NCBI GenBank assembly: GCA_951230915.1
Contig: OX579634.1
Span: 13,170,725-13,234,724, forward strand
DNA length: 64,000 bases
Source: Antitrichia curtipendula
Taxonomy: Eukaryota; Streptophyta; Bryopsida; Hypnales; Leucodontaceae
Reading direction: 5' to 3'
Shown one piece after another: positions 10,832-62,702 of the stretch. Position numbers and translations under genes: made by a program. The first letter of the stretch is position 1, and each line of letters begins with the position of its first letter. The notes beneath the pieces are model-generated. The model was not told the DNA's origin. It did not search any database and saw nothing but the letters and a program-made list of their open reading frames with translations.

Positions 10832-11588
10832 TGCAGTCCCCACTACTTCACCCGCAACTTTCCAAACTAAAAACTCTCCAAACTAGAAAATGTGTTCCTA
10901 AAAACTTCGAACGGTTCAAGAGCGACTGAGAATCCCACAACCAAACCTCGGAATCCACACTCAAAAACAGGTGCACAGATCACCCTCACACCCAAAACCA
11001 CTGGATCCCTGCTGATCCGCAATTCTAGCGCAAACTAGCTACCTGAACGATACCAACAAGAACCATCCCGACGTCTGCCTTTCAAGAACCCCGCCACCAA
11101 TGACGGAAAACCTCCGACCTGGCAGTACCCCCAAATTAGCAGCAAGTGCGCAAATCTACAGGAAGATAAGGCCATTCAGGGCAGGCATTTGGCACATTCC
11201 GCGAAGAAGCGAGAGTACTCGCTTTCCGTATCATCAGCGCCTTCTTGGTCAGGTTCTCCAGTGTCCCCAGCTCTCGATCCAGTTGATGACTGATGAACCA
11301 ACGCTATTGTACAGTACTGTACAGTACGGTACAGATCGTTTGAACTTCAGAAACCAGGTCAAGTTAACGAAGGGGAAGCACATTCCTTGAGTATAACTGC
11401 GTCATTGCATTCTCTCCTTGCGCTCCGTGCGCACGCGGGAATGGCGGACCTCGACCGCGTGGTGGCAAGCACGCCGCTTTCGCAAGCAAGCAAGGGCGAA
11501 TGTCTGTCAGATGTCCTGCAATTGTGACTTGCATGGTGTCAGATAACTCCCCTTGAGAGCTGTGATGCAAACTTATTTTGCACTTACT
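10832..11588. other. upstream region of the AP2/ERF-like gene
   Basis: Presumed promoter and 5' untranslated region. It contains a GTAC-rich palindromic run at about 11308-11337 (GTACAGTACTGTACAGTAC). GTAC cores are bound by SPL proteins in plants, but no role is shown here. No gene is seen. Confidence 0.4.
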
Positions 11589-25029: not shown

Positions 25030-25830
25030 GAAGACATTGCAGACGAGGGCGCCAGCCAATCAACCACCATTTACGCAAGAACCAGGAGGACAGGTACATG
25101 AAACATGCTACTGCAAGTAGGACATGCCCTTGGGATTTTTCCAAGCCCTGGGCATCCAGCCATCGGAGGAGCGAAGCTGGACCTGCAAAGTAGCCCCGAT
25201 CTATGTCCGCAAGATACCTAGCCCTAGACTTGGAAAGGGGCATTTCAATACATTCTACTTGGTGGACATGGCAACGAAGCAGCGACGTGCCGTGAAGCTG
25301 CTCACCATCACTCATGACGCCACCGTAGCAACATGGACAAGCACCCAAGGCAGAGAACATCTATTAGACCAAACGGCAGAGGGGATGAGATCAATCATGT
25401 TGCATGACATTAAGTACAGTCCACTATGGCAGTGGATAGATGATGTCTGGTACTACACATGGAGCGCTCCACACTCTTGCTGCCTATTTCTCCCGTACAT
25501 CGAGATTGCGTAGGACAATATAAGGGTCCAACGACCAACACACTATTCATGGATCAAACTGCCCACACACTTGGGGGTTATGGTGACTCAGGGGACAAAA
25601 GGAGCACTTTGGCATCTCGACCTACAAGAACCATTCAAGAACAATCTAATTCAGTTAGGGCACATTGATAAAGAAGCCTCACCGTCCAAGATAATAAGCA
25701 GGAAGCAACGAGACAACAACATCCCCATACACATCAACATAAAACTGCAAACAGGTTCCCTATCAAGAGAACTAGCTGACCGGGCGCAAGGCCTCTTCAG
25801 TGATACCTTAAATTTCACGACATGTTGAGT
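25030..25830 (+). pseudogene. LINE ORF1-like region, broken
   Basis: The longest piece (about 25124-25513) reads GFFQALGIQPSEERSWTCKV and on to DDVWYYTWSAPHSCC, resembling the N-terminal part of plant L1 ORF1 proteins in position only. Frameshifts separate it from a second piece at 25571-25828. No zinc knuckle was seen. The ORF1 assignment rests on its place between the LINE start and the endonuclease. Confidence 0.45.
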
Positions 25831-33394: not shown

Positions 33395-36284
33395 ATGAGG
33401 TAACTAGGGCTTCGGGATGGCGCTTCCTCTTCTCGGTGCTTGTTGCGAAGCTTGCTTCGGAAAATGGTTTCTCGTGTGATCGTGTTGGTTGTGAGTTTTC
33501 GTAGTTCGCTATTCATGACCGTTTTGTGTAGTTTCTGCCCTCGGATCCATTTCCAAGGTCGGGATTTGGGTTTTTACCCTTTCGGGCTACGTCCTGTGTG
33601 TTGCGTCCGGCCCCAGGCATTGTTTATGGTGCTTGATTGCTCAATATTGAGTGGAGTCACCTTTCTCAGTTCTATTCGTTCACGGGAACTTCGTCAGGTT
33701 TCACGCTTGAGACATGTCTACTGATGTACTCTTTCACTGTAGGTGATGCGATCCGTACACTACTAGGATGCTTACTTAGATTGCGATGCATGCCGTTTGT
33801 GTTTTGAGGTTCTCGGTCTGGATCTACATAATTCGACCATAAGGGATAGCTTTGATAAGATTTTGGGAATACAATCTAGGGTTTCTTGTACTATTGGATG
33901 ATTAGGTCTTTTCCTCTGAACGAATATTCGTCACAGTGATTAGGGATTAATGAAGTACGATTCTACCAGATAACCTAGATTTTTGAGTTAATTTTTTATG
34001 CCTTAACCATTTTGGTTCAGTTCTTCCTAATTCTTCGGGTGCGTGTGTGTTCTCGTTATGCAGCTCGAAGGAGAAACCGACCCTCGGGTAAGTATCTTAG
34101 CTTTCACGCTTCCAGGTGTAAGACTTGTGGTGTTCTTGCACATTTTCGACTTTTGTTTCACGTGGATTCTGCTTTGTCGTTTCTAGGTCTTGCCTAGTCA
34201 TGTTAAACTTATCTCTTCACTGTCGTTTGCAGTGGCACGCGGATCAAAACCCGCAAACGGAACATAGCAGTTCCGTTGGACACAGCAACATTTGCAGATG
34301 CTGTTGTCCAAATCTACAACGAGCATAAAGGAGACTTGGTATGTATTTTCCCCTCCTACTCATTTTCTTTCTCATGATCTGTTTGCTGCGTTGGTTCCGT
34401 GAAAATGACCAGTATTGCTTACAGAGTTTGAATGATCAATCTGTCCAGGAACTCATCGCCAAGGATGTCGATGCCTCGGACCTCGACTTCTCAAGATATG
34501 GGGAAACCTTCTTCGAGGTGCGTTGTTGTTAAATTTGAAACCTTGAAATTATTCATCAATGTTGTGAATGCCTGCTACATAATCTCCGGTTGTTATGTTC
34601 AGGAGTGACTTCCATCCTGTGCGGAGATTGATGAATCACCCCGTCTTGTCACAGGTTGTTTTCACTGGAGGGCGCAACCAGCCGGGAACCACCAAGCCCG
34701 AGGAAGGGGATCGTCACCCCTACTCGGTTCTGAACTGTGAGGACACGCGGGAGAGCATTCTTCCGATTGTGCTTTTCTTGCAGAAGATCATCAGGCGTCG
34801 GCCGTTCATGATCAAGACTCTTGAGAATGTGATGAAGCGGCTGTTGCAGTCCTTGGTGAGCAGATGAATATTACTCGATGTTTTACTTTGAGGAGCCCCA
34901 TGATCTGACGGATTTCTCGAGTGATTGAATTTAGCGAGAGCGGTTCATGGACAACTTTTGATAGTTCTAACGAGGCATGGGCTCACAGTGTGTTTGCTTG
35001 TTTACTTCCATGTTTGCAGGAGTTGTATGGTCCTGAGGATCGCAAGAAGCTGGCCATCTTCACTGCCTTGACATTCTCTCAGAAGCTATCTGGACTGCCA
35101 CCTGAAACGATTTTCTCTGCGTTGATGAGCGATAGTCTGATCGCGAAGGGCATCGTGTTGTTCTTCGTGACCGACACATTCAAGGTGTACTTGGTGGAGA
35201 ACAGTTTGGACGACTTGGTGAGTCTTCTGAAGCGTGCGAAGATGGACGACCGTCTCCTGGACCTTTTTCCGATGCAGAAGCGTTCAATCGAGGGCTTTGC
35301 GGAGCACTTCAAGTATGTCCATTGCATTGACTGAGTGCTATCCATGTTTGTTTCAGTGACTTCCTGCTTTTCTTTTGTCTCATGATGCAAGTAGGTTCCA
35401 ATGCGTGACTGGTTGTTGAGAAGCAGTGCTGATGTGTAAGGTTGGTGTTTACAGCAAGGAAGGTCTGGGTGTACTGGTGGAATACAACACCAAGAAGGTT
35501 TTTGAGGTGAAGCTGAAGGAGTTACGCACAGCTATGACGGACCAGATTGCTGAGAACGTAAATGTGAACGAAGTGATTGAGATGGTAAAGCTGAAGCGAA
35601 GAGAAGCAACCTTGCCAGATGTGGATGTTATTCGCACAATCTGGGATTCCATCATGGATGCTGTTCAATGGTCCGGCAAGAATCAGCAGCAGAACTCTAA
35701 TCTTGCTCTTCGCCAGGTTAGCTATTTTGGGCACTAGCACTTATTTGGGCACTTCTTTTGTCTCTGCAGTACGATCTTGCCCTGCACAGTTAGTGCAGAT
35801 CGTATTTTGTTGATTTACTGATGATAGTGCTTTGCTATTTAGATTGCTCGTCTCTTACATGCTTTCATACTATGTGCACAGGTCAAGCAGTGGGGCAAGC
35901 TTTTGGGTGCTTTTTGCACGACTGCTAAACTGGAGATGGACTTAATGTACAAGATCCAGATTCACTGTTATGAGGATGCAAAGCTGATGAAGCTTTTCCC
36001 TGAGATCATTCGAGCTTTGTATGACCAGGATGTTTTGGCCGAGGACACAGTTTTGAACTGGTTCAAGAAAGGGTCTAACCCTAAGGGCAGGTGAGTGGTC
36101 TCCGAAACCCTCTGTGGATTATGAACGTGGTGAATTTCTGATGTATTATTATTCAATGTGATTGGAATCAATGTAAGGATCTGATTTTCTCATGATATTT
36201 CTTTCTTTCCTGGACAGGCAAACTTTTGTCAAAGGTCTGGAGCCATTCGTCAAATGGTTGGAGGAAGCTGAAGAAGAGGAGTGA
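33395..36284 (+). CDS. BZW/5MP-type eIF5-mimic protein, 411 aa, 9 coding exons (copy 1)
   Basis: Homologues (BZW1/2, 5MP, kra) have a W2 domain like that of eIF5 and eIF2B-epsilon. They bind eIF2/eIF3 and tune start-codon choice. Exons: 33395-33399, 34064-34087, 34233-34338, 34449-34517, 34655-34855, 35020-35312, 35455-35716, 35882-36090, 36218-36284. All borders are GT/AG and all phases join. The product starts MSSKEKPTLGGTRIKTRKRN, the plant family N-terminus. It then shows HEAT-like helices (FFEVVFTGGRNQPGT, LAIFTALTFSQKLSGLPPET) and the W2 region from about residue 250 (VEYNTKKVFEVKLKE, WSGKNQQQN, KLMKLFPEIIRALYDQDVLA). It ends with the W2-typical acidic FVKWLEEAEEEE. Length matches the plant family. 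The second coding exon is a 24-nt microexon. It is paralogous to 59386-62702 and looks intact. Confidence 0.95.
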
Positions 36285-42780: not shown

Positions 42781-42790
42781 GTCCATAATG
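42781..42790. repeat. left target-site duplication of the 15-kb transposon
   Basis: GTCCATAATG is repeated exactly at 57723-57732, directly outside both inverted termini. Ten bases is within the 8-11-bp range of Mutator-like elements. Confidence 0.85.
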
Positions 42791-42841
42791 CAACGACGCT
42801 AGCAGGCGAGCTTGAAGCAGTGAGCTTGTGAGCTGTGAGCG
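42791..42841. repeat. left terminal inverted repeat
   Basis: It reads CAACGAC then GCTAGCAGGCGAGCTTG, followed by GTGAGC motifs (CAGTGAGC, TTGTGAGC, TGTGAGCG). It pairs with 57664-57722 over its length with scattered mismatches and one 8-bp gap. Another CTCGTGAGCTTGGAGC follows at about 42848. Confidence 0.88.
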
Positions 42842-43004
42842 TGGATCTCGTGAGCTTGGAGCCCCCAAACTTAAAAAAATTGAAAATTCGGACTCCCAAA
42901 TTTTTTTTCCCGATTTTGTTGGGAAAAAAGAGGAAAAATGTCAATTTTTTTACCTATTACCGTGTACCCTATAACCGTGGATTGTGTGAAATTTTATTTT
43001 TGAT

Positions 43005-43325
43005 TGGGAGGCAATTCCATCACTCACCATATTTATTTTCCTAGAAGTTGTGAAAGCCAAGCTGCACTGATGAACAGAAATTCATCGACAAAATTTAATG
43101 GGGGCCCAATTCCATCACTCATCAATTTTTTTTTCCTACAGTTTGTAAAAGTTAGGCACCATCGGTGAGTAGAAATTCATCTACAAATTTCAATGGAGGG
43201 CAACTCCGTCACTCAACATATTTTTTTTTACTATAGATTGTGAAAGCCAATCACCACTAGTGAACAAAAATTCATTCACAAATGGTAATGGGGAGGCAAC
43301 TCCATCACTCACAATTTTTTGTGCC
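43005..43325. repeat. subterminal ~96-bp tandem repeat inside the transposon
   Basis: Units begin GGCAATTCCATCACTCACCA at about 43009, with variants at 43104, 43200 and 43297. Each contains AGAAATTCATC.ACAAA. They lie between the left terminus and the transposase 3' end, where Mutator-like elements often hold subterminal repeats. Confidence 0.7.
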
Positions 43326-43908
43326 CAAATACAAAGTTGCCTGAATACAAAATACACATGACGTAATTTGTCTTGAACAAAATGCTAGAGGACCGTTGGG
43401 AATATAATATGCCACACAATTACGGCCAAGGTCTATTCCCCAAACAGTCCTCCCGCAATGATTGTTCATTGAACGTAACTACGTATATAGTGACTCATTT
43501 CCAAATGCCAATCGTTATGGGACAACTGAAGACTTAAAAGTGACCTCTGAACATGTGTTGTGGGACACTTGAATAGGAACCTGGACATTGGTCTTGTCAC
43601 TCTTCCCCATTTTCAGCTTTCATCAGTATTGTACGCTCATGTATTAGCAAAGGCCGCCTTGTATTTGGGTGTGTAGTATTACAGTAAAATATAAGGTTGG
43701 AACTCATGCACATGCATTTTAATTATCCACATGTATTCTTACATATGAGACATGCTCCTCTATTTTCTGATACCAATAACTTCTTCTATGCCATGTACTT
43801 CATATCATTTCAATGTATGAAGGCCATTACAATACTTTGCACTACATAAAAAAAATAGCCATACTTACTCTGGCAATATGATAATCCTTGCCCGCACTAG
43901 GAGTACCT

Positions 43909-46900
43909 TCACTCATTGTAGCTATAACTAGGTGCATGAATGAATTTGTCTTCATGAAGGTCCATCTTGCAGAAATACCTATACAAGTAGTACAAGTGCT
44001 TACAATTTACGTATTGTTGGCGACCTCCAACAGCGGACACAACCATATTCACAAAGTCCGGACATGTGCATGTAGGAAACATACCAACAGTAATTCGGTA
44101 TATATGGTTGTTGGAGTCCACCCCACTCTCGAGTACCACTATTGCTCCAAGGCCTGGAAAAGGGAGAAGGGTCACTCTTAAAATTTGGCCTCTAACATTC
44201 CGAGCACTCTCCCACTTGTTCCGTTGCTCTGCAGTAGGGGCATTTGTAGCTCTTCTAATGGTCCGGTTGTTCCTCACTATTGGATATGCATCCGGATTTG
44301 GTGGAGATGCTTGGTCAAACAATACAGGCTCAAAAATATTAGACATGGAGAAGAGCTGACGTGGCGACAATGTAGGCCGTTCTTGGAGGCGGAAGCCTGC
44401 ATGCTGCAGCAACAATGTCTCTTCTCGATCCAAGTTGGTTCCAGCCAACACTTGCCAAACTTTCGGCACCTCACGCCAATCTATGACCCACTTACGCTTT
44501 GTACCTTGCACACATCGTTCAATATCATCCCAACAAAACCAAAAATCGGCCACCACCTCACGCTTACTCCCGTACTCTTCTTTTCTACCACGGTAGGTGG
44601 GAGCTGGAGTTCCCTTTCTTCCTTTTGCAATTTTTGCGGTACACTTGATCTTTGACATTCGCTGCTGAGCTTGGCATCTTGCATTTGATTTGTGACTTAT
44701 CCTTGCAATGTGCCACTTTGATGTGTCGCAGTCACTTTCAAATGTGATTGGCACATACTGGTGTGGAGTGACCTCGCTGTGTGATTGGTTGACTTCCAAT
44801 GGCTCCGTGAAAACCTTGGTTGACCTTGTTCGAACTCGAGGTTGAGAAAAGTTGACCTTGTCGGGGCGATGTGAATCTCCGGCATCACCAATAGGTATGT
44901 CCAACTTTCTCTTCGTGCTTCCAAATATTTCTTCTCCTTCCAAATGTGGTACTCGAGTTCCTACACCATGTGCTTCCGGCAATGTAATCAATGCCTCCGC
45001 AATTTTTTTTGGGCATCCGCTGCGTCTAGCAGCTCTCAACTTCAATTCTCCCTTGAATGGTCCTGAACCAGAAGTGTGACCTCTCAAATATGCACGGTAG
45101 TTTGTCATTTGCATCCAAGCACAAATACTATCATCACAAGTGGCGTCAAACAAATTGTTTGCACGTTTACCGGACATTTGAAGCCACTTGTTATGAACCG
45201 TTTCGGACAAATTACAAAAAGGTAAATCTGTCATCTCTTCCAAACTCAAGCCCTACAAATTCAACCGAAGCAATTAGAAACTATTCTAAGCATACATGAA
45301 ACATTTGTATGAGAAAAACGAATTCTAAAAATTCACACTGTACAACTACGATACCTTGTAAGGAATATTGAAAATGTGAATTCTTAATTTAGGACCTTTC
45401 AAATTCCTTGCAACTAATGAATACCCAAAATAGGAGTAGTACCAGACAACATATGAACATCCATCGGATCCGACGGATGTTTAAGTATTGCTTGGTACTA
45501 CTCCCATTTTTGATATTCATCAATAATTCAAAGAAATTTACTAGTCAAAATTTGTTGTTGTCATGTACAGAAACAATAAAAACAAAAAGCCATTGACAAT
45601 TTTTTCTGGTACAAAGTATAACTCTATTTTGCAACACTTTGTAATAAATAAAAAATGAAGCTAGAAACAAAAATTCTTAGTTGAGCTTACCATGGTCATG
45701 AAGCCTCCCCACTGTAAATATCGAAAATGCCAAAATGCGAGCCAGTGGTCTAGGTGATGAAGTGCTTCTTCGGTTGCAGCTCTAGACAAAAGCCACCATG
45801 AACAAATTGCAAGGTACCGACTCTCTGCTTCATCCACGGTCTTTGATTCTTTGTATTGCTTGCATAACATAATGTGTTGTTGTTGAAATGCATGCTTGAT
45901 GTGCTTCTGTGTGTGTTTTATAAGAGAAGTACTCCAGTGTAGCAAACACGTCCTTTCACGGTTCTCCATTACCTCATCGGGTCTGCCACTACCGTACACA
46001 ATACGAACTGCGTTCCAATTGGCCATGGCGCTATCTGCCATAAATCCCTTGAAGTTCGGATCAACCAATCCATGTCGTGCCATGACCAAATTCAAACTCT
46101 TCCAAAACTGTACTTGGACTTCGGTATCTTCAGATTGCATGTCACACATGGCAATGGTCATCACTTTTTTGTACTGTGCATCATACACGTGGCAAGCCAT
46201 TGTGGTCCAGTCCTTCACGCGCTTTACGTGGTCGAACATCATCCACGTGTTTTGCAGATCACCACCTGATTGCATACACCTTATCAAGTCCACTCCACTT
46301 CCAGGTCCTTCAGTGAGCATTTTGAAAATGTACACCTTCTCTTTGCCTTGGCCTGGGAAGACGCTATCATGTATAAATTCGAACTTTGATTCTTTCTTCA
46401 TGGTCATAATGTTGTCAATGACTCCTCCTCGGTTGTTTGAGCGAAAAGAAGAGATGACGTTTCGTATACTTGGACTGCTCAGAAACTGGAAGCGGTCCAT
46501 GACCTCTTTCATTTCTTCTCCCTTCAACATTTCCTTCTCTCCGACTCCGTGATGAAATAGGTGATTTTGTAGGAAATCTTTGCTAGCAGATAGCGCAATG
46601 GCAGAGTTGGTGGCTGTGGGGGTTCTAGACACCTGCTCTGCAATGAGATCACTAATTTTTTTTGCGGAGTCCCTATACAAGCCCATAGCTACTGGATGAA
46701 TATGATTACCGAGGTGAATAGCAGCCCTACTCATCTTTGCATCATCGCTGTAGCAGTAGTAAATTCTAGCGCCGCATGAGCTCACGCACGTAGGTATTGT
46801 TTTGCAAACCTTACAAACTAGCCTACAATCTTTAGGAGGACCCTCTCCTATTGCAAAAGGAAAAACTGTAGAACCGCTCCACTCTGTCTCATTCTTTCTG

Positions 46901-47958
46901 GAAGCCCTCTTCATATACTCACACTCAGTATTTTCACAAACAAGATGACTAGCGCAGTATGACTTACGGAACTTTAAGTTGTCGGAGTTGTGGATGTTTG
47001 TTGTCATCAACTTGCACCAAGGATGTCCGTCGTATCGCTTGTCCATTCCTTCCAAGTTCTTTGCACAAGATGAATAAGATTGTGGTCCACACGGAGGTAA
47101 TTCGAAGATGGTGTCCCCATTGTATGTAGGAGGCAAAAACTTCACTTCATGGTGTTCCACAGTGTCAAAGTCCATTGTAGACAACTCACTCCTAGAACGA
47201 TGAAGCTTAGAAAGGCTCCTCAAGCACTTCATTATACTCGGTTGGTGGAAAGGCCTTGGGTGCAATGGAGGACGGGACAACACAGAGCGCACATGACTAC
47301 TAGATGGGGTATTGGATTCAGAGTTCCCATTTCCCTTCTCCTCTAAAGCATTGTTAATTGTAAGGGGGTTCAGTTGAAGGGTTAAGGGTGGAGAGTCTTC
47401 TTCTGAATCGCTAGCCAACTCTATGATAGAATCCAAGTTCTCTATCTTCGGTATAACAAGAATTGGACTTCTAGGAAATACTGAGAGACGTTCACGACAC
47501 GGACCTTCTGTAGTTGCCTCTCTCATGAATGGGATATCCACTGTTGAATTCACTGATTGCCGACTTCCTATCTCAAGAGAGGAGGGTACCATTGATAGTG
47601 AGATACCATAAACTCTAAAATTCCCAGACGCTAGGTACCAACAGAAGCCCTCATCACACATGGACTTTAGTATAGGAACTGATTGTTGCAATTCACCTAA
47701 CTCAGACCTTCTTTCTTCCTCTACATAGATAGTCGATTCAACAAATTTGAATCTCACATGAAGCAAATGATTCAGTACTTTAGCTCGCCCTCCTTCATCA
47801 AGTGGAAACACTAAGGGTGCCTCCTGACCATCTACACGTATGCAGGTCATGCTTCTATCAATAGACAAGTAGATACTGAAATCCAAAAGAGTCACACTGT
47901 ATATGAAGGATTCACAGGTTACTTGGCTGTCTCCATGTTTTATAGTGATCCATGCCAT
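43909..47958 (-). CDS. MULE-like transposase with WRKY/GCM-like zinc region and SWIM finger, 1203 aa, 2 exons
   Basis: Exon 1 is 47958-45691 and exon 2 is 45252-43909; the 438-bp intron has GT/AG ends and phase 0. Residues ~335-423 form a Cys/His-rich region (LVCENTEC, CRLVCKVCKTIPTCV, IHLGNHIHPV) like the WRKY-GCM1/FLYWCH DNA-binding modules of MULEs. The catalytic core spans ~570-735: FDHVKRVKDW, CDMQSEDTEVQ, the Asp in GFMADSAMANWNAV, and the C..H pair in RTCLLHW, in Mutator order. The third acidic residue is probably in DEAESRY. The C-terminal SWIM finger is CTCPDF followed by NCKHLYYLY at about 1147-1184. The N-terminal ~330 residues match no fold I know. The frame is fully open, suggesting a functional copy. 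It would act in the nucleus on the element's termini. It is divergent from the cargo gene across ~600 bp. The KDZ/Zisupton group also has SWIM-bearing transposases, so superfamily placement needs a profile search. Confidence 0.85.
45418..45523. repeat. palindromic hairpin repeat 1 (transposase intron)
   Basis: Arms AATAGGAGTAGTACCAGACA and TGCTTGGTACTACTCCCATT surround the core CCATCGGATCCGACGG (GGATCC at 45466-45471). It is one of five related hairpins, all in introns of this transposon. Confidence 0.75.
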
Positions 47959-48558
47959 TCCCCATTATGGACAAAGGCGCCACAGGTAAATTTGATTATA
48001 ATTTTTACTTTCATCATTAATGACGATAGATGCCATCCTTTTGATGTTCTTCAAGTTCATAAGCGCCAGCATTTACTGAATATTTCGGGAAGGGACAACT
48101 GCTACAATACGGTCTCATCATCATTGTAGTGCATTTAGGTATGAAGTGAAGGAATCACTGCAGATAGATTTGATTTAAGATATGTCCTAAATTTCTTTTT
48201 GAGATATTTATCCTCTTCTGATTATATGACACACAATCCACGCTTGTACTATGGCATGTGCAGAATTTCACATTTACCAAAAAAGTACTGTCAAAATTGA
48301 TGTTGTTCTTCTTAACTGTCATAGATGTTGACGGCACCATCAAGCGCCGTGACGCGGCACGCTTTTGCAACAATAACAAGTATAAATGGCAGACCTATGC
48401 TATAGCACAACTTGTGTGAAGTTATGGAGGCCAACGTCCATTTTCAAAGAGTACTTATAGTCTTTTTGAGGAGGAGGGATTCATTTGTACATCATGTTTT
48501 TGGTGTGTTAGTGCTTGCTCTCTGAGGTAGTTGTTCTCATTATCCTTTCTCTTAGCAC
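47959..48558. promoter_or_regulatory. divergent promoter region of the transposon genes
   Basis: A 600-bp spacer separates the two divergent start codons. It must carry promoters for both genes or a shared one. No clear TATA box or operator was recognised. The 10-mer CATTATGGAC at 47963-47972 is the reverse complement of the target-site duplication word and is probably coincidental. Confidence 0.5.
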
Positions 48559-51500
48559 ATGCTCATAGAAGACCGGGGAGATTTGTTTAGCTTGCCATTG
48601 CAGGGTAGAAAGAGGAAGAGGCGATCTTCATTCTATTTTTCTTCTTCTAGAGCATTGAGTAGAGCTAGAATGAATCGATCCAAGAGGGCTATGTCAAAGT
48701 CCGGAAATTCTGGAGCTGGCGAGCTTCGGAAGACTTTTCACTTCGAGGTGGGAGAAAGTGGGGATGCAATGGGTGTTGTAGGCCAGGAGGTTGGCGGAGA
48801 AGGGGAAGAGTCTCAGCAAAATTTCACGTATGACGAAGTTTCAGCTCATCACGTCAACACTAATGTACGATAATATCTATTCTTTCTATTCTCAAGAGCT
48901 TGTTGTTTTTATCCAGTGCTCATTACGCAAGCGCCATATGTTTGAATGCGATATTCCTTGAGGCCAGACATTAGTTTAATCATGTATTGCTAATATACAT
49001 ACAAGCACAAAAAGGACACCAAATTGCATATGTTTTAGGATACAAATATATAGGGCCCTTTATAGTTTGCCAACTTGGAACTGCAGTAGTTGTGAGTACT
49101 CAAATGAAATTCTAAGAAGAAAGTGAAGCTATGTTCAAGTATTGATGTTGTGATCTGAGTAGAGTCTAATGACAAGGGATCAATAATGTTTTCAATGTCT
49201 CTACAGTGAACATTGTTGTGCTTGAGGACAAGTGCATGCATCACATTACAAGCTGTGCTTTAACCATGACTCCCCAAATCAAAAAATGAACCGTATTTAG
49301 AATAAATTAATGATTATCCTTTCTTTTTGGTGAAATGGTAGAGATTGATTTATAGATTGACACTTCGTACTGAGCACTATAAAATAATGAGTGGATGGTC
49401 TCTGGTAGATGCAAAATGATAAACAAATTAGTTGCTTTGCAGGATTTTTGAAAAGATGGATATCTTTGACTTTAGTGGCTTTTTTTCTTTTTCGAAACTA
49501 GCATTCAATCAGTCTAGACTTCAATATTACTCTTCATACATATTGTACCTTCACTTTGGTGGCTTCAAACTTGGAAATTAGTATTCCAAATTCCTGGACC
49601 ACAACAGAATACATCTCACTATCCACAAAGAACAACATATAAGTAGTCCTAGATTTAAGTCGACTTCATTGTTGCTGAGAAGCTATGAGAGCGTGCGCGC
49701 CATGTCATGCATCTGTCAAGTTCACCGAGACATTCGGGCAGCTAAAGTTGATACATTTAGGCAGTAAGGGAACAACCATTCATGAACCACAAATCACGCA
49801 AGTAAGTGAGGCCACTAAACCGCAACTGAACTCTTAAGCGCAAGTGGTGTTAAGTACAGAAAGTAATTCCGATTCAAGAATAGAAAGAAAAATCTCTTTT
49901 GAACATGATTGCGTTCCTTAGATAATATTTGCATGGATGAGGAATTGAGGATTCGTGGAAAAAGTATCCATGCAATCGGGCCTGCATTCAATTTGCCACC
50001 CAAAGATTTCGCTGTCACGAAGGCAAGTCAGCCGAGCAAAAAGCTCCATCGATCACGGCCTGTGACGAGAACTGCGTGTGGTTGAGGAAGCACTGAACTC
50101 CGATACTAAATTTTCCTTGATCAGTCCCATATCCATCCGAGCTTGCATATCGATTGAATCTCTGAGGGACTGCGCAGGAACAGGGAGCGATGAGGAGGAG
50201 TATGCGGAGCCGATCCAGGCAGGGCAACTTTGGAAACGAAGTTGGGAGCCACTCGGAGCCAGCCGAATCAACGAAGGTATGTGCTTCACTTTGATCTCGT
50301 TTTGCGTGCATGACCGCGAGGGTTCTGTCACCTACACTTGGACCTGCCTTGGACTTGTGAGAAGCTTGGGCCTTGTGGCGCAACGCTCGGGTTGACGTGT
50401 ATCGGGTTTGTGCGTGGTCTGCCGCATCATGCGTGGCGCGTCCGCAACGAGGTTCCTGGACGGTGAGTGTCGCGCGTCAAGTGAGAAGCTTGGGTCTTGT
50501 GTGGCGCGCGACTGGTGCGTCGCTCGAGTTTGTGCGTGGTCTGCCGCATGCCGCATCGCGCGTCCGCAACGAGGCTTTCGACCGGTGAGTGTCGCGCGTC
50601 AGGTGAGAAGCTTGGGTCTTGTTGTGCGACGCTCGGGTTGACGTGTCTCGGGTTTGTGCGTGGTCTGCCGCATCATGCGTAGCGCGTCCGCAACGAAGCT
50701 CCCGGCCGGTGAGTGTCGCGCGTCAGGTGAGAAGCTTGGGTTTTGCGTGGCGCGCGAATAGTGCGATGCTCGGGTTGACATTTCTCGGGTTTGTGCGTGG
50801 TCTGGGTTAACGTGTCTCGGGTTTATGCGTGGTCCTCAAATTCATACCGAACCTGTCATTCAAAATGTGTCGTTGGGATGTCAGCGGTCCCCTTTTCTGG
50901 GGTAGTAGCAAGTAGCCAAAAGACAGGTGTCGGATCCAACGCTACTATTTCAAGTGGCTGCTACTACCCCACCAACTGGAACAACAACCAAATTTGGTGA
51001 CGATCTGTTTCGTTTCCGACCGCAACTGGCGTCTCAATATTTCTTTGACAAAGAAGATTCCTCCGAGGTTCGAGCTCAAATGAGTATAGGTTTTATTTGC
51101 TTCATAAGTTGAATCGCCTCTGACTTCCATTCGACCGAAAAATCATGTCCCTAGTTAGTGCTGCTCGCTTCTGCAACCTGTCAATGCTAGTCCCAAGCAT
51201 ATTTCATTTCACAGATCGAAATAATGTTTTTGGTGATGATCGAGATTCTGGTGTAGCTTTATTCACTTCTCCGGTACTTGACGAGGATCAGGGAGTCTCA
51301 AATGGTCAGTACTTGCAGTCGGATTCTTGGAAACATTTAACGTGTCTTTCGATTTCTGGGGTACCAGCAAGGAGCCACCGAATGGCCGTCGGATCCGACG
51401 TAGTCTTAGCTGGTGGCATCACTGGCATGAGGTACCCATGGAACTGGCAACTTCAGCAGTTCTGTAAAAAAAAATTTAGCACTTGATCGATTATAGGACA

Positions 51501-54500
51501 GACAGAGGACAAATTTACATGTCGAGCTCCGCGAGGGCACGGTGAAGCCATGATTTCCAAGATAGTGAGACCAAATCGGATTTTCCCTCGATATATTTGC
51601 AAAGTTTCTGGTTTTTTTGTTTACATATCTGATTCCAAATTCTATACAATGCAGGCAAATGATGCATCTCTGGGAACTGCCATGGAAGCTCAGAGAGAAG
51701 GTGAACAGGTAACTCACAAAATCAGCAAAGTCTTAGGCGATGATATGTTGTGATATTATCAAATTTTGATAAAATATTGTTACATAATTTAACGGTGGGA
51801 TTACTCACTTTTTCCATAAGCAGATTGTTTCGTATATTCTTCATTCACGTTCTAGATAATTCGAAATTGGTCAGTCACAAGGACCCGTTTCTGGGGTAGC
51901 TACAGATACCCAGGAAAGGTCCTTCGGATCCGACGGGTATTTCCTGGGTACCTCGAGGTACCCTGTAAATTGATACCCTGTAAGAAAGAATCCTTGAGGT
52001 ACCCCTGAGGGAGAGTTTCCAGGGGGAACACCTGATATCCGATACCCTAATTGATGTTCCTTCAAATCCTATTATTTTTGTCATTGGATGGGCGACAATC
52101 CATAAATATTATTTGAGGGGTACCTAACTATACTTTCAATGGGTCCGTTTTATCCGACGGTCCTTCTTGGCACTTCTTGAGCTACCCCACAAACTAGATT
52201 CTTTACCTAAGCTCTATTGAAATTTTGAATTCGATTTTGCAATGTCATAGGCGTTCACATTGAGACATATGATGCCTAGACCCAGATGATCAATTAATTT
52301 AATTCTTACTTTGTTCTTGTGTAGGTGGAGGGACGCAAAGGCAAGCGTGCAAAAGCTACTTTGGGGACCCCAAAATCACCTGAGATAAAGGGTTTCCCAG
52401 CCCTTCAGATAGGTGCGCCTTCAAATACCAAGAAGTGGCCTCAACCAGGCGTGGACCTCTCAAGCGACTCAAGTGATGAGGAAGACACATTGGTGAGTTT
52501 TGCAGACATCATGGATGCCGCTGAGCGAGCGGCAGATGCTTTTGAGGGCGACCGTGTTAGTCAGACACGTGAGCCTGTCCCTTGGTGGTTGTCACCAGAG
52601 AGCTCTAATACAGAATTTTCCTCTTCTATTGAGCTCTCTAACTCTCCGTGTAGTCCTTAGTTTGAGGGTGGATGTGAGTCAATGTGTGAGTGCCCGCTTA
52701 ATGGTAGGGTTTATTCTAACGAGGTCATCATCCTTAGCTCAGATTCAGATGAGGACAATGAAGTGGACGTGGTAGGATAGGATATGTCTTGGTAGTGATC
52801 TTCTTGAGCAGCATGTTATTAGAATGCCCCATGAAGGCAATCATTTTTTCAATCATGTATGCAGATATCTACCTATCTATCATTAAAGATTTGTATTTTT
52901 TTGGCATAAGCAAAGCATTGTGAATTTCAACTCAAGTGAATGCTTTACATCATTCGTCTCACATGTTTATAATCATGAGTTCAAAATTTATCATACATGA
53001 ATTTGTATATGCAGATGGACATATCGCCGGTCAAAAAAACACAAGAAGAAACTCTTCGAGAGACTCCTGGAACGGATGATACTATGCAGCCGGAGATTGA
53101 AGAGGGGGACGAAGGAGAAGAAGGCGAGTTCATGCAGGAGGATAGTGTTGAAGACGAGGAAGAAAAGGGCTTGTTGGAAGACGATCTGCGGCGTATTCAC
53201 AAAGGAGATTCGGTGGAAACGCTCCGTGGCTTGCGGATGAAGCCTGAAGAACTCTTTCGCCTACACATTCCATTGTGTAGGCTTGTAGCCATGCCCATGG
53301 TCCGGCCTACACTCTCTTGCGACATCAAAAAGTTAGAGCAAGAATTTGCTGGAGGATATCGTGATGGAGCAGCGGTGTTCTACGTTTCAACATCAAATGA
53401 GCAAGGAGAAAGCTCAGAATTTACGGAGGCTGAGATGAGCGAGTAGGATGCACTCTGGAAAGAAAAAAATGAAGTCTTCACTAAGTATATGGAGTCCAGA
53501 CCCGAGCTCAAGTTCATGAAGAACTTGAAGTTCTACATATGCGATGGAAACCACCGTCGGATTGCTTGGATGAATTTGATTGGCAGGTGCTACGCATTGG
53601 ATCCAACATGGCATTGTGCCATCGATTATATAGTGTTGGACACCAAAGGTCGGATTGAAGTTGTCATGCAAGTGATGCATGACATCAACAAGTGAGTTAT
53701 CTTTGTATTTTTTGTTTAATTTTTAATTTTAATTTATTATATATCTTTAGAAGATTTAGGCAAAAAATATTTATTTGAATACTGGTTTGATTTCAGATCG
53801 GTTGAAGACTCCCATGTCAAGACTAACTTGGTACACACTCTGTATCAAGTTCAGAAGTATGGACTTCTGCCAATTCAGCGATTTGCTGATCTGCTTAGGC
53901 TATTAGAGAGGATGAGATGTCTTGAAAACACTGTTTCCAAGAAATGGTACTTCATACCAGTGCAGGTCTTCACATCATTTCTTTTTTGGATAAGATATTT
54001 TGTTTCACATGAGAGTTCACATTCCTTGTCTTCTCATGCTTTTGAATCTTATGAGGTGATTACCTAAAATTGGGGTGCTTGTGTAGCAAGACATTTCTCA
54101 AGCCGTAGATGCTGCTGTGCGGAAGTATACCGAGGTCACGCCTGAAAGTGAGAGGAAGGCAGAAGATTTGGCACTTGCCATGAAGGCTGGAGCAAAAGAG
54201 AGAACTAAACATTTGAGTGTGAAGATGGGCAAACTGTTGGCAGTGGCGAATCCTGCAAATGGGCCTGGATTTCTAGAACAAGTGAGTAAAGTTTCTCAAA
54301 ATTGAGTGATTTACATTTTCCACATGTTATGTTTAGTTGGAAATTGATCTTCTATTGGTGTAGGTGGAGAGGCATTGGAGCACGAATGAGATTCCCGAAA
54401 TGACCTTGGAGAAGTTGCAGATGGTAGCCACATGCAACATGACAGCCGCACAGAAGATCAAGATTCTGAAGTGGTGGAACTCCTCTGCTCCATCTCGTGA

Positions 54501-57369
54501 AGCGAGGAAGTTCCCACAGAAGCCTGTTTCCGAAAACTACCTTTCTCCTTTTCTTGCCAAATGCGTTTGGTATGCAGGCGTAAGTGAGCAATATTTTTTA
54601 TGTTCATGTAATTGAATTTGTTGATGGTTTGTATTGAATGCTTGATTCATGACTTTGGAAAAAACTTTGTCATATCCGAAATTATGGAATTTCATAGTCT
54701 GGCATTTTTTTTAGATCAAAGATGCAGCTGTGGAGTACTTCGATTTAGTGGTGAGGCAAGACAACATCAACATCAATTACAATGTACCGCAGCAGCCACA
54801 GTATTTGCCAGAGTACATTGAAGGATGGAGGCAGAAAATATGGGATCATGGCTTCATGACGTACTTCAAGGGACAAAACTATTTCAAGAAGGGAGAGTCT
54901 TTTGTGGCTCACGAAGGTTCAGGCTCCGCAGTTCGTAGAGTTCTCTTCCGGTAAGTACATTGAACTTATTTCTATAAAAATGTAGTTCACTATCAAGTAC
55001 TAATGTAATTTGTCTTTCATCACTTCGAATAAGAACTTAAAATTATTGCTATGGTTCTACACACTTGTGTTTGTGAAATAATTTGTGAGAGACAAAGTGA
55101 GGGTATAAACCTTGTTCAACCTTACTTGGATTGTTCTTCTAATATTTTAGTTAGTCTTTTATTGTCCTCGTAATATTTTTCTTATGGAGAACTGTAATTG
55201 TGTTGCAGTTATTTCAAATTAGAGCTTGAAGCCAAAGGGGCCATTTCTCGCTTGGACCTTCCTCCATTCATATCGTCATTTCTTGACCGCACCTCAACGG
55301 CTTGTATGTTCAGTCCGCATCAGCTACGCACCTACACCACAACTCATCTCAGCAGTGGAGGATGGTATTTGGACTGTACAATGGCCTTCACTCCTCCTTC
55401 AGAAGTAGAATTGAGGAGATCTTTGGATGGCAAAGGTGCTGTCGATTTGGACATTGACGAGTTTGCCAGCCTGGATGATAAAGCAAGAACAAAGGCCATT
55501 AGGAAGAGAGATGCTCATGACAAAAAGAAAGAAGCACGAGCGCAAGTGAAACTGGAAACCTCGAAAAAGAGGGAGGCTGAGCGAGCAGCAAAGAAGGCGG
55601 AGAAAGAGAAGGATGATAAAGCCAAGGGCAAGGGTAAGAAGAAGGACGAAGCACCATCTCTCATAGTGGATTATGATTTGGAAATTGTCAGCGGAAGGAA
55701 GCGGAAGGCCACTCTATTGCAGCTCACGGAAGATGTCATTATTCACGTGACCCAAGCGATGGTCTTCACAGAGGATGATGTGGTGAAGACCGAGGATTTA
55801 ATCCTCAACGTCTCAATTGAAGACCTTGTGGTTGACATGGAGGAGAAGAAGCCGACTTCGTACAAAGACATCATTGTCTTTTTGAAAAAGGTGACCATCT
55901 TTCTCTTCATAGTAATAAATGATTTATTTTTTTTGAGTGACATTATCATTGTTTGTATTCATTCTCTCAATTTTAATGCATGACATGTTTGCAGTCTATG
56001 TCAGCTGGAAAAGCTCGCAAGTTCGAAGGGGTGACAAACGCTAAGCCAGGGGTGGACGTCATTTTTATTGATTGCCCAGAGAACTTGCCCGTGCCAGGGG
56101 TCTCTTCTCCAACAGACGAAGTGCCGGAATGGAATGCAGACGAAGATGTTGAGGCCCTCCAATCAGCATGCAGCTTTGCCGCCGAGCATCTACAAGACGA
56201 CGGATGCATCATAGTGTTTCACTCGTACAGCATCAAAGCGAAGGAGGACATTGCTGGAGTGTGTGAGACATACCAAATGGTGAAGAAGAAGGAGTGGATG
56301 GGAATGAACCGTATGCACTTGACCTCGGCTGTAGGCAAAACAAAGACGGTAAATTTCATTCAGATTTTTTGGGGCTTTCATGAGCAATTCACTTTGTGCT
56401 CTACTAACATTCAATGCATTCTAATATCCATTTTGCTTGGCTCCTGCAGACACAAAAGTTTGGAATCACCCTCCTTGTCAAGGACCTTGGCGCCAAAGGG
56501 AATTCCAAATTCTCTTTCAAGCGCACTAACACCATGATCAAAGCTGGTGTTGACATAGCATGTGATGATATGTTGATGAACTATACCCATCCGGATGACA
56601 TGGCGATGAATGGAGAAAAGCCATGGCAAGGCGGGCGCAAAAAAGATCCAAGGTTTTTTACAATCCTCCTTGAAGCGACAAGCATCGAAGGAGATCTGAT
56701 ATTGGATTGCACTGCATCTACAGGTGAATGCTCAATTAAATTATGTTACATTTTAATTGTAATCTTCAAATCTAATCAAGGAACTAAGGTATTTCAATTT
56801 TTTGGCCTGTAGGTGCATGCATTACAGCTTGTCGTGGCACCGGTCGCCACATTGTGGCCTTGGAGGGGAATAGGGACATTTATAACGCGATCTTGAAGCC
56901 GATGAGGAAGTCAACAGGGACTGTGGTGGCAGCATTAATGCCGATGTCGATGGAGGTGGTTTTAGAAGATCCGGATGATATGCCCATGGTGCCTCGTAAA
57001 TTCGCTCGCAAGGGGAAATTTAGTAAGTAAGTTGACACTTTTTAAAATCTTCCATAACATGGTGACTCACATTTCAAAACCCTAACATTATTTTGTTCAT
57101 TTTGCAGGGATCAACGATTGATGGCAGCAGGTGCTATTACCCCAAAACCAAGTCTTCTCATTAGTCCGGAGAAGCCTTTTGACCTTCCAGTCTATGCCGA
57201 GCAAATGGCAAGTGCCTTCGCGGAGTTTGGTTGCTCCAAAGCAAAACGCCGTAAAGACACATATGCTCTAAAGGTTTTGCAGTACATAGATGGGTCTGCA
57301 TCCGAGGGTAGAGAGTCCTCAGAATCATCTACGAGTTCCGAATCTGCACCTGAGTTCATAGCAAATTAG
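48559..57369 (+). CDS. ParB-like domain fused to beta-class DNA methyltransferase-like domain, ~1361 codons, 13 exons
   Basis: Exons: 48559-48864, 51655-51708, 52325-52771, 53015-53691, 53797-53965, 54087-54281, 54364-54579, 54715-54950, 55209-55890, 55995-56348, 56450-56723, 56813-57026, 57108-57369. All borders are GT/AG and all phases join. An alternative start is ATG at 48670. The N-terminus has a basic GRKRKRRSS and long acidic tracts (DLSSDSSDEED, EEGDEGEEGEF). A ParB/sulfiredoxin-like domain lies at ~350-475, with RLHIPLCRLVAMP and the signature ICDGNHRRIAW. A lysine/glutamate helix spans ~858-920. A methyltransferase-like domain lies at ~1000-1245, with motif IV-like VDVIFIDCPEN, HLQDDGCIIVFHSYS, then motif I-like GDLILDCTASTGACITA and GRHIVALEGN. 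Motif IV before motif I is the beta-class order of N6-adenine/N4-cytosine DNA methylases. DCPE and TASTG replace DPPY and FxGxG, so catalysis is doubtful. Two in-frame TAGs (52658-52660, 53444-53446) break the frame. The first could be spliced out as a 168-nt intron (52493-52660). Confidence 0.75.
50050..50275 (+). other. possible alternative exon or captured fragment in cargo intron 1
   Basis: A GC-richer block carries a protein-like frame (VEEALNSDTKFSLI, GSDEEEYAEPIQAGQLWKRS) and ends at a good donor, CAACGAAG followed by GTATGTGC. No matching acceptor or domain is clear. It could be an alternative first exon of the cargo gene or a captured host fragment, as in Pack-MULEs. Confidence 0.3.
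50355..50830. repeat. GC-rich ~123-bp minisatellite in cargo intron 1
   Basis: The word GTGAGAAGCTTGGG recurs at about 50357, 50481, 50603 and 50728. Each is followed by CGGGTTTGTGCGTGGTCTGC and CGCGTCCGCAACGA variants. It is strongly CpG-rich against an AT-rich background. Confidence 0.85.
50895..50986. repeat. palindromic hairpin repeat 2 (cargo intron 1)
   Basis: Arms CTGGGGTAGTAGCAAGTAGC and GGCTGCTACTACCCCACC flank the core GTGTCGGATCCAACGC. Confidence 0.75.
51355..51440. repeat. palindromic hairpin repeat 3 (cargo intron 1)
   Basis: Left arm CTGGGGTACCAGCAAGGAGC, core GGCCGTCGGATCCGACG, right arm with GCTGGTGGCA and GAGGTACCC. It follows the same plan as repeats 1 and 2. Confidence 0.7.
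51888..51975. repeat. palindromic hairpin repeat 4 (cargo intron 2)
   Basis: TTCTGGGGTAGC and GATACCCAGGAAA pair with TTTCCTGGGTACC around the core CCTTCGGATCCGACGGG. Further CCTGAGGTACC-like words follow to about 52050. Confidence 0.7.
52113..52188. repeat. palindromic hairpin repeat 5, diverged (cargo intron 2)
   Basis: GAGGGGTACCTAAC and GAGCTACCCCAC flank a core reading GTCCGTTTTATCCGACGG, which has lost the GGATCC centre. Confidence 0.5.
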
Positions 57370-57663
57370 ATTCATGAGGTTGACAAATCTCTCGGGTCAA
57401 ACTATTGTCTATTTCATTTCTATTATGATTGGATTTGTGTGTTTTATGGCTACATCTCGGATATTTTTCATTTCCTATTTTTTTTAATTGCTTCACTTTA
57501 TTTACAGCCCTCATATTTCACTATTGTTGCCTAGAAAGAAATGTCAATAAATACAAATAGGCATGTAACATCCAAACAAAAACCTTATATTTTTCACATT
57601 GCACTACGTATGTCATCCACGGTCATAGGTCCTTTACACTAATTTTCCAAATTAAATTTTTCC

Positions 57664-57722
57664 CGCTCACAGCTCACAAGCTCACCGGCTCACCGCTCCA
57701 AGCTCGCCTGCTAGCAACCCTG
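57664..57722. repeat. right terminal inverted repeat
   Basis: It reads CGCTCACAGCTCACAAGCTC at its inner end and CAAGCTCGCCTGCTAGC then AACCCTG at its outer end. Compared with the left terminus it has one extra GTGAGCCG unit. Confidence 0.88.
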
Positions 57723-57732
57723 GTCCATAATG
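57723..57732. repeat. right target-site duplication of the 15-kb transposon
   Basis: GTCCATAATG is identical to 42781-42790. Confidence 0.85.
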
Positions 57733-59385: not shown

Positions 59386-62300
59386 ATGAGGTAGGTGCTT
59401 GCGCCCTTTTCTTTTTGGGATTTTGGTGTTGTCTTGGATTGGATTCGGGGGTTTAGGGTTCCATCGCTGGTGAACTTATGTGGTGAGAACATTCACTGCC
59501 ATGGCTGCTATTCCGCAGCTTCTGCTTCTTTCACGGTCTTCTTTCTGGTCAAGCAAAATCAGTTTCTTTGCTGTCGTTCGCATGTCGATACGCTTGAGTT
59601 CCTTGGCTTGGTGGGCTGCGTAGTGCTGGATTTGCGAGTGAGATGCTTTCGTTTTTCGAAACCCTAGTATGGTTTGTTTGCGAAGTTCATTGAAACGGCG
59701 GAGTCTATGTATGGTAACCTGTTTGCTGTCGCTTTGGCAGTGCACATTTGAATTTTGATTCTATGTCAGTGCTGCAATTTTGTGGAATAGGAAAGTCGGA
59801 TGCAATTTTGCTGCACATCCTAGTGGTTTTCTCTGAGCTAGATGGTGTTGAGAGTTTGCTGTGATTTTATAGTGAATCAGATGTTTATGACGTGTTTCCT
59901 TGTTCATGTAATGATTGTTGGTTTGTTGCTTCTTTTTTTGCAGCTCGAAGGAGAAACCGACCCTTGGGTAAGATGACTACCTTCTGTTATTCATCAATTT
60001 TGGTTCTGAAGTTGAAGTCTTTGATAGTGCAAAATATAAAATGTGATTGTGGACGATTATCAAATTGTTTGGTTTATGCGGTGAAGCTGAAAGCTGTTAT
60101 TTTGAAATTGCTTGCAGTGGTACGCGGATCAAAACCCGCAAACGGAACATAGCAGTTCCGTTGGACACTGCAACATTTTCAGATGCTGTGGTGCAAATTT
60201 ACAATGAGCACCAGGGAGACTTGGTATGTCAAGCATGCACCAAGGACTCTGTTGTTTTCATGCGTTCTGTTGACATTTTCTTCGTTCTACAATTGCCATG
60301 AGAGTCATTACGTCAAATTTTATCTGCTCGTGCTTTCAGGAACTTATTGCCAAGGACATTGATGGATCGGAGCTCGACTTTTCAAGATATGGCGATACCT
60401 TCTTTGAGGTGGGTACCTTTTCCAATGTAATTCCATTCTCTGCCTATTTCAGTTTGATAGTGTTCACCATCATAATAGCTTCGTATTTGTTTTTATATCT
60501 TGGTTTCATCTTTATTGTCTGGTATTGATGAAACACTCCCGTCTTTGTCTCAGGTTGTTTTCACTGGAGGGCGCAACCAGCCGGGTACCACCAAGCCCGA
60601 GGAAGGCGATCGTCACCCTTACTCGGTTCTGAACTGTGAGGACACGCGGGAGAGCATTCTCCCGGTTGTGCTGTTCTTGCAGAAGATCATCAGGCGTCGG
60701 CCGTTCATGATCAAGACTCTTGAGAATGTGATGAAGCGGCTGTTGCAATCCTTGGTTAGCTTCTTTCCTGTTTACAACCTAATGCTTACAATGTTATTTA
60801 TCTGAACTCGACCCACTTCTTGAAAACAAGGATTGCATGACCTACATTTTAACCCCTGAAGGACCATGAAGCCCAAATTTGGGTCTTGTGTTTGTTCAGC
60901 TGTTTTTGAGTCATATCGGGACTTTCCTGTTTGCAATATTTTACATTTTGGAACGACACATGATATAATATCGGGTCCCATATATTTTATTTTTTTAACA
61001 ACACGATCAACAGAAGTCGTCATTTTAAAACCTGGAATCCTTGGTACTGTAGGGCTTAATGATCTTACTGCTCTCAGTGTTTAGAGGTTTCCTACAGATG
61101 GATGTACAACTGGGTCCATTCTCTTTACGAAGTGGACTGACGCTGGTTTCATTTTCTCTCGTTCCTCACTCAGCATCTAATTATTTTGTTTGCGTGTAGG
61201 AACTCTTTGGACCTGAGGATCGCAAGAAGCTGGCCATCTTCACTGCCTTGACATTCTCTCAGAAGCTATCTGGACTGCCACCTGAAACGATTTTCTCTGC
61301 GTTGATGAGCGATAGTCTGATCGCGAAGGGCATCGTGTTGTTCTTCGTGACCGACACATTCAAGGTGTACTTGGTGGAGAACAGTTTGGACGACTTGGTG
61401 AGTCTTCTGAAGCGTGCGAAGATGGACGACCGTCTCCTGGACCTTTTTCCGATGCAGAAGCGTTCAATCGAGGGCTTTGCGGAGCACTTCAAGTATGTCC
61501 ATTGCATTGACTGAGTGCTATCCATGTTTGTTTCAGTGACTTCCTGCTTTTCTTTTGTCACATGATACAAGTAGTCTGTTTTAATGGCTTTCATGTATTG
61601 AGGTCGGCGTTGAAGTTGAGAGTTAGTGCTGATTGGAGAATTCTATGTTGTTTGCAGCAAGGAAGGTCTGGGTGTACTGGTGGAATACAACACCAAGAAG
61701 GTATTCGATGTGAAGCTGAAGGAGTTGCGCACAACCATGACCGACATGATTGCAGAGGATGTGAATGTCAATGAAGTGATTGAGATGGTGAAGATCAGGC
61801 GGAAAGAAGTAACCTTGCCAGATGTAGATGTTATTCGCACAATCTGGGACTCCATCATGGATGCTGTTCAATGGTCCGGCAAGAATCAGCAGCAGAACTC
61901 GAACATGGCCCTGCATCAGGTTAGGATTCTGGAATTTTATTTTGCGTATGTAATAATTGCGTATGTAATTTTTTGTGCTGTTCACTTGCGGGTTCTTACT
62001 CTTTTAAACCCTAAGTGGGCAATTCCATATTCTTAGGAGTTGAAATAAATCATGTGGGAAATTTCAAAGAAGGGAACAGAAAGAAAGAAGAACATATATA
62101 CTTCGTTTTTAAACATAGATTTATGTTTCGAAAGTTGCTATGTTTAACGATTAGCTTCCGATGTGGACTTTCTATTTTGGGTTTGACACTTTGGGGTCAA
62201 ATAACTATTTTGAAGGAGAGGGGTTCACTTGCTGTCAATGTGTGTCTGCACAGGTCAAGCAGTGGGGCAAGCTTTTGGGTGCTTTCTGCACGACTGCTAG

Positions 62301-62702
62301 GCTGGAGATGGACCTAATGTACAAGATCCAGATACATTGCTATGAGGATGCAAAGCTGATGAAGCTGTTCCCTGAGATCATTCGAGCATTGTATGACCAG
62401 GATGTTTTGGCAGAGGACACAGTGTTGAACTGGTTCAAGAAAGGTTCCAATCCTAGGGGCAGGTAATTGTTCTTTTCCTTGTCACGGAGATGTATATTTT
62501 AGTACATTATCCTGTTTCTTTGACTGCTTCGGTATTAGGATTTGTCTTTGTCGTTGGATTATTTTTCTCTTTGTCCAGATCAGTTTTGTACTTGATTTTC
62601 GTATGTACTGATTATTTATTTATTTATTTGACCAGGCAAACTTTCGTGAAAGGTCTGGAGCCATTTGTTAAGTGGTTGGAGGAAGCGGAAGAAGAGGACT
62701 GA
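59386..62702 (+). CDS. BZW/5MP-type eIF5-mimic protein, 411 aa, 9 coding exons (copy 2)
   Basis: Exons: 59386-59390, 59944-59967, 60118-60223, 60340-60408, 60554-60754, 61200-61492, 61658-61919, 62254-62462, 62636-62702. Every exon has exactly the length of its counterpart in copy 1, and all phases join. The protein differs from copy 1 at about 20 positions (e.g. DIDGSELDFSRYGDT, KVFDVKLKELRTTMTDMIAED, ending EEAEEED). It contains the HEAT-like part and C-terminal W2 domain expected of 5MP proteins that bind initiation factors in the cytosol. Most introns are unrelated to those of copy 1, but exon 6 and the start of intron 6 are almost identical in DNA. Intron 5 carries a TTAA-flanked repeat (60849-61059). 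Both copies appear functional. Confidence 0.95.
60849..61059. repeat. short TTAA-flanked repeat in BZW copy 2 intron 5
   Basis: It begins TTAACCCCTGAAGGACCATG and ends CCTTGGTACTGTAGGGCTTAA, so its termini match those of the ~0.5-0.9-kb TTAA family. It is absent from the shorter intron 5 of copy 1. Confidence 0.5.

Follow-up and report, generated by a model that had tools for sequence, protein, structure and literature searches.

What is the function of a gene with a ParB-like and a DNA methyltransferase-like domain in the genome of a moss, and why does it travel with a transposase? The question is raised by a stretch of 64,000 nt of Antitrichia curtipendula (GenBank assembly GCA_951230915.1, contig OX579634.1, positions 13,170,725 to 13,234,724 of the forward strand), which we call the window; all coordinates refer to it. 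From the sequence alone, the original prediction had placed here a transposon cargo gene in which both domains are fused. We find a Mutator-like element (MULE) with two genes, a transposase and the predicted gene, which we call the cargo gene. In the explanation that we consider rather probable, the cargo gene codes for an accessory protein of the element: a DNA-binding factor gated by nucleoside triphosphate (NTP), with a methylase fold that probably does not methylate, which acts on the element itself. We have high confidence in the structural account as a whole; the functional account is tentative.

The element is defined by its ends. When AT repeats are set aside, the longest inverted pair in the region 38000–64000 is formed by two arms of 37 nt, 42798–42834 and 57679–57715, with 89% pairing. 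They are part of the terminal inverted repeats (TIRs) at 42791–42834 (+) and 57679–57722 (−), which have the same length. Directly outside both of them we find the 10-mer GTCCATAATG, at 42781–42790 and 57723–57732, as an exact target-site duplication (TSD) of 10 bp. In random position pairs within the window, identical 10-mers appear 46 times in 2,000,000. The matching inverted ends and the flanking 10-mers thus delimit an element of 14,932 bp, 42791–57722, which encloses both genes. Each end also has four copies of GTGAGC, in inverted orientation with respect to the other end: they start at 42820, 42828, 42835 and 42850 on the left (42820–42855, +) and at 57665, 57672, 57680 and 57688 on the right (57665–57693, −). 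The two genes are divergent, head to head, and the region between them may contain a divergent promoter (47939–48386), with one TATA-like site per strand, 47939 (−) and 48381 (+). With TIRs, a TSD and a transposase of MULE type, the transposase and the cargo gene form one mobile unit, as the original prediction had proposed.

The transposase gene is free of in-frame stops and codes for 1,167 aa in two exons, 45691–47850 (−, 720 aa) and 43909–45252 (−, 447 aa). Its structure model has an RNase H-type fold, closest to ISCth4; the protein is a Mutator-like transposase, with a DDE of the IS256/MULE type. The putative catalytic residues are D540, in strand 1 of the modelled fold (46231–46233, −), D606 (46033–46035, −) and, judging from its sequence context SETVHNKW, E737 (45202–45204, −). 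Both Asp residues are invariant in our transposase alignment (A1), which has 35 members, 34 of them relatives from P0001–P0057; the counterpart of SETVHNKW in relative P0008 is AETVHNKW. A CxxH motif (C635–H638, 45937–45948, −) lies between the second Asp and the putative Glu, as in MULEs. There is also a SWIM-like zinc finger, CxC...CxH (43996–44070, −), which the Pfam SWIM model matches below cut-off (E 0.25 and 0.092). MULEs such as MuDR, VANDAL and Muta1 share with this element a TSD, of 8–11 bp, TIRs and a DDE transposase with CxxH; SWIM fingers and extra genes are described as common among them, and subterminal tandem repeats as present in mosquito MULEs (PMC6446971, PMC5225508). The element differs from them in its short inverted ends and in its transposase, which is not recognised by any Pfam model: none of the 35 aligned members matches a Pfam MULE profile at E ≤ 0.1.

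Two minor features of the transposase may be added. A SUMO-interaction-like stretch (loose pattern; 47395–47430, −) is found in 31 of the 35 aligned proteins, and directly before it 32 of them have a SUMO-acceptor-like site psi-K-x-E, absent from the copy in the window. A degraded second relative of the C-terminal part of the transposase lies at 761–1331 (−), with 34% identity over its larger piece.

The cargo gene (+) was spliced by hand. Its 13 exons are joined across 12 introns, each of them GT–AG, and the phases close exactly. The gene runs from an ATG at 48559 to a TAG ending at 57369, and 1,361 codons precede the terminal stop; the original prediction gave the same span and at least 12 introns. 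The first part is formed by exon 1 (48559–48864), exon 2 (51655–51708) and exon 3 (52325–52771), which is acidic and contains the SUMO-interaction-like sequence VIILSSDSDEDNE. Exon 4 (53015–53691) has the ParB-like domain, from about 53267, and exon 5 (53797–53965) belongs to a block that carries on in relative P0128. They are followed by exons 6 (54087–54281), 7 (54364–54579), 8 (54715–54950) and 9 (55209–55890), the last one with a lysine-rich stretch. The methyltransferase-like domain starts in exon 10 (55995–56348), which holds its first half, continues in exon 11 (56450–56723), which ends in motif I (from 56690), and finishes in exon 12 (56813–57026); exon 13 and the stop are at 57108–57369. 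This single frame contains all three motifs quoted in the prediction, namely CDGNHRR (residue 445), VDVIFIDCPEN (1014) and GDLILDCTASTG (1193). The first two are separated by 569 residues, close to the predicted 550 codons. The gene is therefore present, but with a correction: it has in-frame TAG codons at 52658–52660 (exon 3) and 53444–53446 (exon 4), so that this copy as it stands encodes no full-length protein.

Relatives of the cargo gene are abundant. With a query made of parts of exons 4 and 10 (E ≤ 1) we found 244 homologous proteins, which argues against a chance motif match. Of these 120 are listed: 106 are relatives of the part from exon 4 and 14 of the part from exon 10; the counts of motifs and alignment columns given here refer to them. 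Some of them come from ENA contigs longer than 100 kb, others from short contigs of metagenomes. In three cases the longest contigs of a relative of the ParB part and of one of the methylase part have identical sizes: 327,815 (P0060, P0121), 619,392 (P0076, P0064) and 425,079 (P0163, P0084). A transposase relative and a ParB-part relative also coincide in this way, at 583,271 (P0050, P0079). These paired sizes are suggestive of a domain fusion and of transposase–cargo linkage in the relatives. When the spliced protein from exon 4 onward was used as query, there was no match among 8,000 scored candidates, the exon-sized predictions being probably outside the length filter. Scans with short patterns gave no confirmed relative in viral contigs (matching stretches: none for the cargo, 132 for A1, 151 for A2, from exon 4, and 28 for A4, from exon 10) nor in prokaryote genomes (17 for A2 and 54 for A4). 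The cargo gene family is widespread in public sequence and apparently undescribed.

The N-terminal domain is supported as a ParB/sulfiredoxin-like fold by a structure prediction: when the domain of a relative is modelled, ParB/sulfiredoxin structures rank first. The GxxR motif of Box II is present as GNHR, and DGNHR (53543–53557) is exact in 93 of the 106 relatives. PF02195 (ParB) gives no match with the cargo protein of the window, nor is it among the 20 Pfam families matched by 85 exon-4 members; for this reason we speak of a ParB-like fold and not of a PF02195 member. Pairwise comparisons with YbdM and N15 ParB gave no match either. The commonest PHROG is a ParB-like one, phrog_1033, in 25 of the 85 members, with a best E of only 0.03. 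The Pfam matches of these members are scattered and below threshold; they include DUF1015 (7/85), which in P0113 and P0099 covers or adjoins DGNHR, and DndB (1/85). KMP11 (7/85) is also the top of a PDB sequence search (E 0.043), but it is situated ahead of DGNHR and we judged it compositional. The ParB-like domain thus stands as a predicted fold, not as a significant sequence match.

By sequence comparison, the C-terminal domain is a homologue of the phage beta-class N6A/N4C methyltransferases which has lost the canonical motif IV. For each of four phage enzymes (L001–L004), none of 500 shuffles reaches the score of the true comparison. As predicted, motif IV comes before motif I, and the homology extends along the domain, both in profile and in pairwise comparisons. 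In the position of motif IV (56070–56081) we find DCPE; the canonical [DNS]PP[YFW] is absent from the window and from all 14 exon-10 relatives, and the 15 sequences have D[CF]xx instead. We therefore class the domain as a relative of the beta class and not as an active methyltransferase; its fold is probably non-methylating. With exon 10 alone (15 members) no methyltransferase family is found among the PHROGs, so the assignment requires the full domain, for which phrog_498 matches at profile positions 224–427 of 633. An MT-A70-type methylase was set aside, since the context of the motifs fits N6_N4. The original prediction was to fall if no significant ParB or N6_N4_Mtase match appeared. In Pfam this is half the case, with PF02195 unlisted and PF01555 scoring 19.3 bits where the cut-off is 26.7, but the profile, pairwise and fold evidence goes beyond these two models.

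Could the cargo protein nevertheless be a functional DNA methyltransferase, acting on N6 of adenine or N4 of cytosine in spite of its unorthodox motif IV, which marks the DNA of its own element? All 15 sequences have the motif IV Asp, and the NLPV that follows is invariant, which means that the site is constrained and not drifting; the window also retains the motif I-like GDLILDCTASTG with its downstream context. Against it we have the loss of the canonical motif in every exon-10 sequence, and a report on the N4CMT of bdelloids in which the change from SPPY to APPA abolished activity (PMC8885841). We consider this unlikely, and a working DNA-modification gene is not supported, also in view of the two stops of this copy. 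The stops themselves may suggest a decayed relic, with similarity but no present function: the one in exon 4 falls in a column which has a single residue in 103 of the 106 relatives. At most this would apply to the present copy: it has intact splice junctions and phases, its frame is otherwise undamaged, and it is accompanied by a stop-free transposase. The relatives have open frames, although they were called as open frames and are biased in this respect. A relic is the least probable of the alternatives. It is also quite improbable that a single MULE copy has captured a host gene, as Pack-MULEs do, so that the cargo would be no standing part of the transposon family. Fragments of host genes are indeed described as frequent in MULEs (PMC5225508), but here we have a gene of many exons, divergent to an uninterrupted transposase. 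Indirect evidence also comes from the diversity of the 244 relatives and from the short metagenome contigs on which many of those listed (120) lie, which agree better with a repeated mobile family than with a host gene in single copy.

The origin of the fusion is a separate matter. In the accessory-protein explanation that we prefer, the ultimate source would be a ParB–methylase fusion of a phage or bacterium, since the pairing of domains is shared: ParB–N6_N4 fusions are described as frequent in phages and prophages, with the same GxxR Box II motif (PMC12704722). The cargo differs from them by its 1,361 codons, 12 introns, long linker, non-canonical motif IV and an apparent insertion in the ParB part. 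The capture put forward in the original prediction is thus plausible, but unproven. The four phage relatives inspected (L001–L004) are stand-alone methylases, judging by their length, which weighs against an origin in a ready-made fusion. Together with the long distance between the two motifs, this would fit a joining of both domains within eukaryotes, which we find somewhat unlikely: the pairing is frequent in phages, and the match of phrog_498 leaves space for an N-terminal domain.

How might the accessory protein work? It would bind a nucleotide through its ParB fold and load onto the DNA of its own element, where the inverted GTGAGC clusters are candidate sites. The methylase fold would serve for binding DNA or S-adenosylmethionine (SAM), not for ordinary N6/N4 methylation. 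The protein might then aid transposition or block silencing by the host, in the manner of VANC. VANC is the second gene of Arabidopsis VANDAL MULEs, which also contain noncoding tandem repeats; its target regions are such repeats, and its action on its own copies has been demonstrated, while for the cargo it is proposed (PMC10398659). We draw the parallel because the element has subterminal clusters and, in intron 1 of the cargo, a GC-rich tandem array with about three copies of a 122–124-bp unit (50357–50776, +). The likeness is one of description and implies no sequence relation; the abstract on VANC does not present it as a ParB or methylase protein (PMC10398659). A stronger version, in which a eukaryotic MULE lineage standardly carries a phage-type ParB–methylase fusion as a self-specific NTP-gated clamp on its own ends, with the methylase site re-purposed for new chemistry or SAM sensing, and thus represents a new class of counter-silencing systems encoded by transposons, seems to us rather improbable.

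Other systems are related in part. The bdelloid N4CMT is a captured bacterial N4C methyltransferase, thus a bacterial-type N6_N4 methylase in a eukaryote with a relation to transposons. However it is described as a host gene which marks and silences transposons, with an intact SPPY and a chromodomain (PMC8885841), whereas the cargo is transposon-borne, has a ParB-like fold and lacks SPPY. DNA transposons with TET/JBP, SET or methyltransferase genes also have DNA- or chromatin-modifying enzymes aboard, but different ones and in other hosts: fungi, oomycetes, Mariner elements of viruses (PMC12730594, PMC3627910). All the components are known singly: MULEs, their second genes, phage ParB–methylase fusions and transposons with modification enzymes. 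We did not find the combination among the papers listed by our searches of the openly licensed literature, several of which gave capped lists: judging by titles and beginnings of abstracts, no listed paper deals with a ParB–methyltransferase gene carried by a transposon of eukaryotes. Neither ParB nor methyltransferase occurs as a word in the main text of a 2019 MULE survey (PMC6446971) or in that of a gene-capture review, and a 6mA survey across eukaryotes mentions neither ParB nor moss. In the 2025 ParB survey, which used the PF02195 gathering cut-off, sulfiredoxin is the commonest eukaryotic member named (PMC12704722); the family of the cargo does not reach the cut-offs of curated profiles, a possible reason why we saw no description of it there.

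Few transposons bring their own tools for modifying chromatin or DNA, and cases like VANC, TET/JBP and SET have opened up mechanisms. If our explanation is true, eukaryotic transposition or silencing would gain the principle of the prokaryotic DNA clamp through a ParB-type switch which is fused to a methylase fold within a MULE. The conserved, yet non-canonical, motif IV raises the question of whether methylase folds have been adapted to a different role.

Other repeats are present in the element. A tandem array with a unit of about 95 bp and 3.3 copies lies between the left end and the 3' end of the transposase (43005–43320). Four stretches of about 100 nt which share TCGGATCC can form hairpins: 45415–45520, 50885–50985, 51345–51445 and 51880–51980, with folding energies of −47, −36, −39 and −42 kcal/mol. 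Every one of them is found in an intron of the two element genes.

In the rest of the window there is a LINE-like endonuclease fragment at 25804–26277 (+), with an Exo_endo_phos match below cut-off (E 2e-4). An AP2-domain gene at 10193–10882 (−, E 1e-9) is the main pointer to a plant host. A 5MP/BZW-like gene is present twice, at 34050–36284 and 59930–62702; the two copies are similar, each with a HEAT_5MP1_2 match (E about 1e-28), and lie about 26 kb apart, with the element between them.
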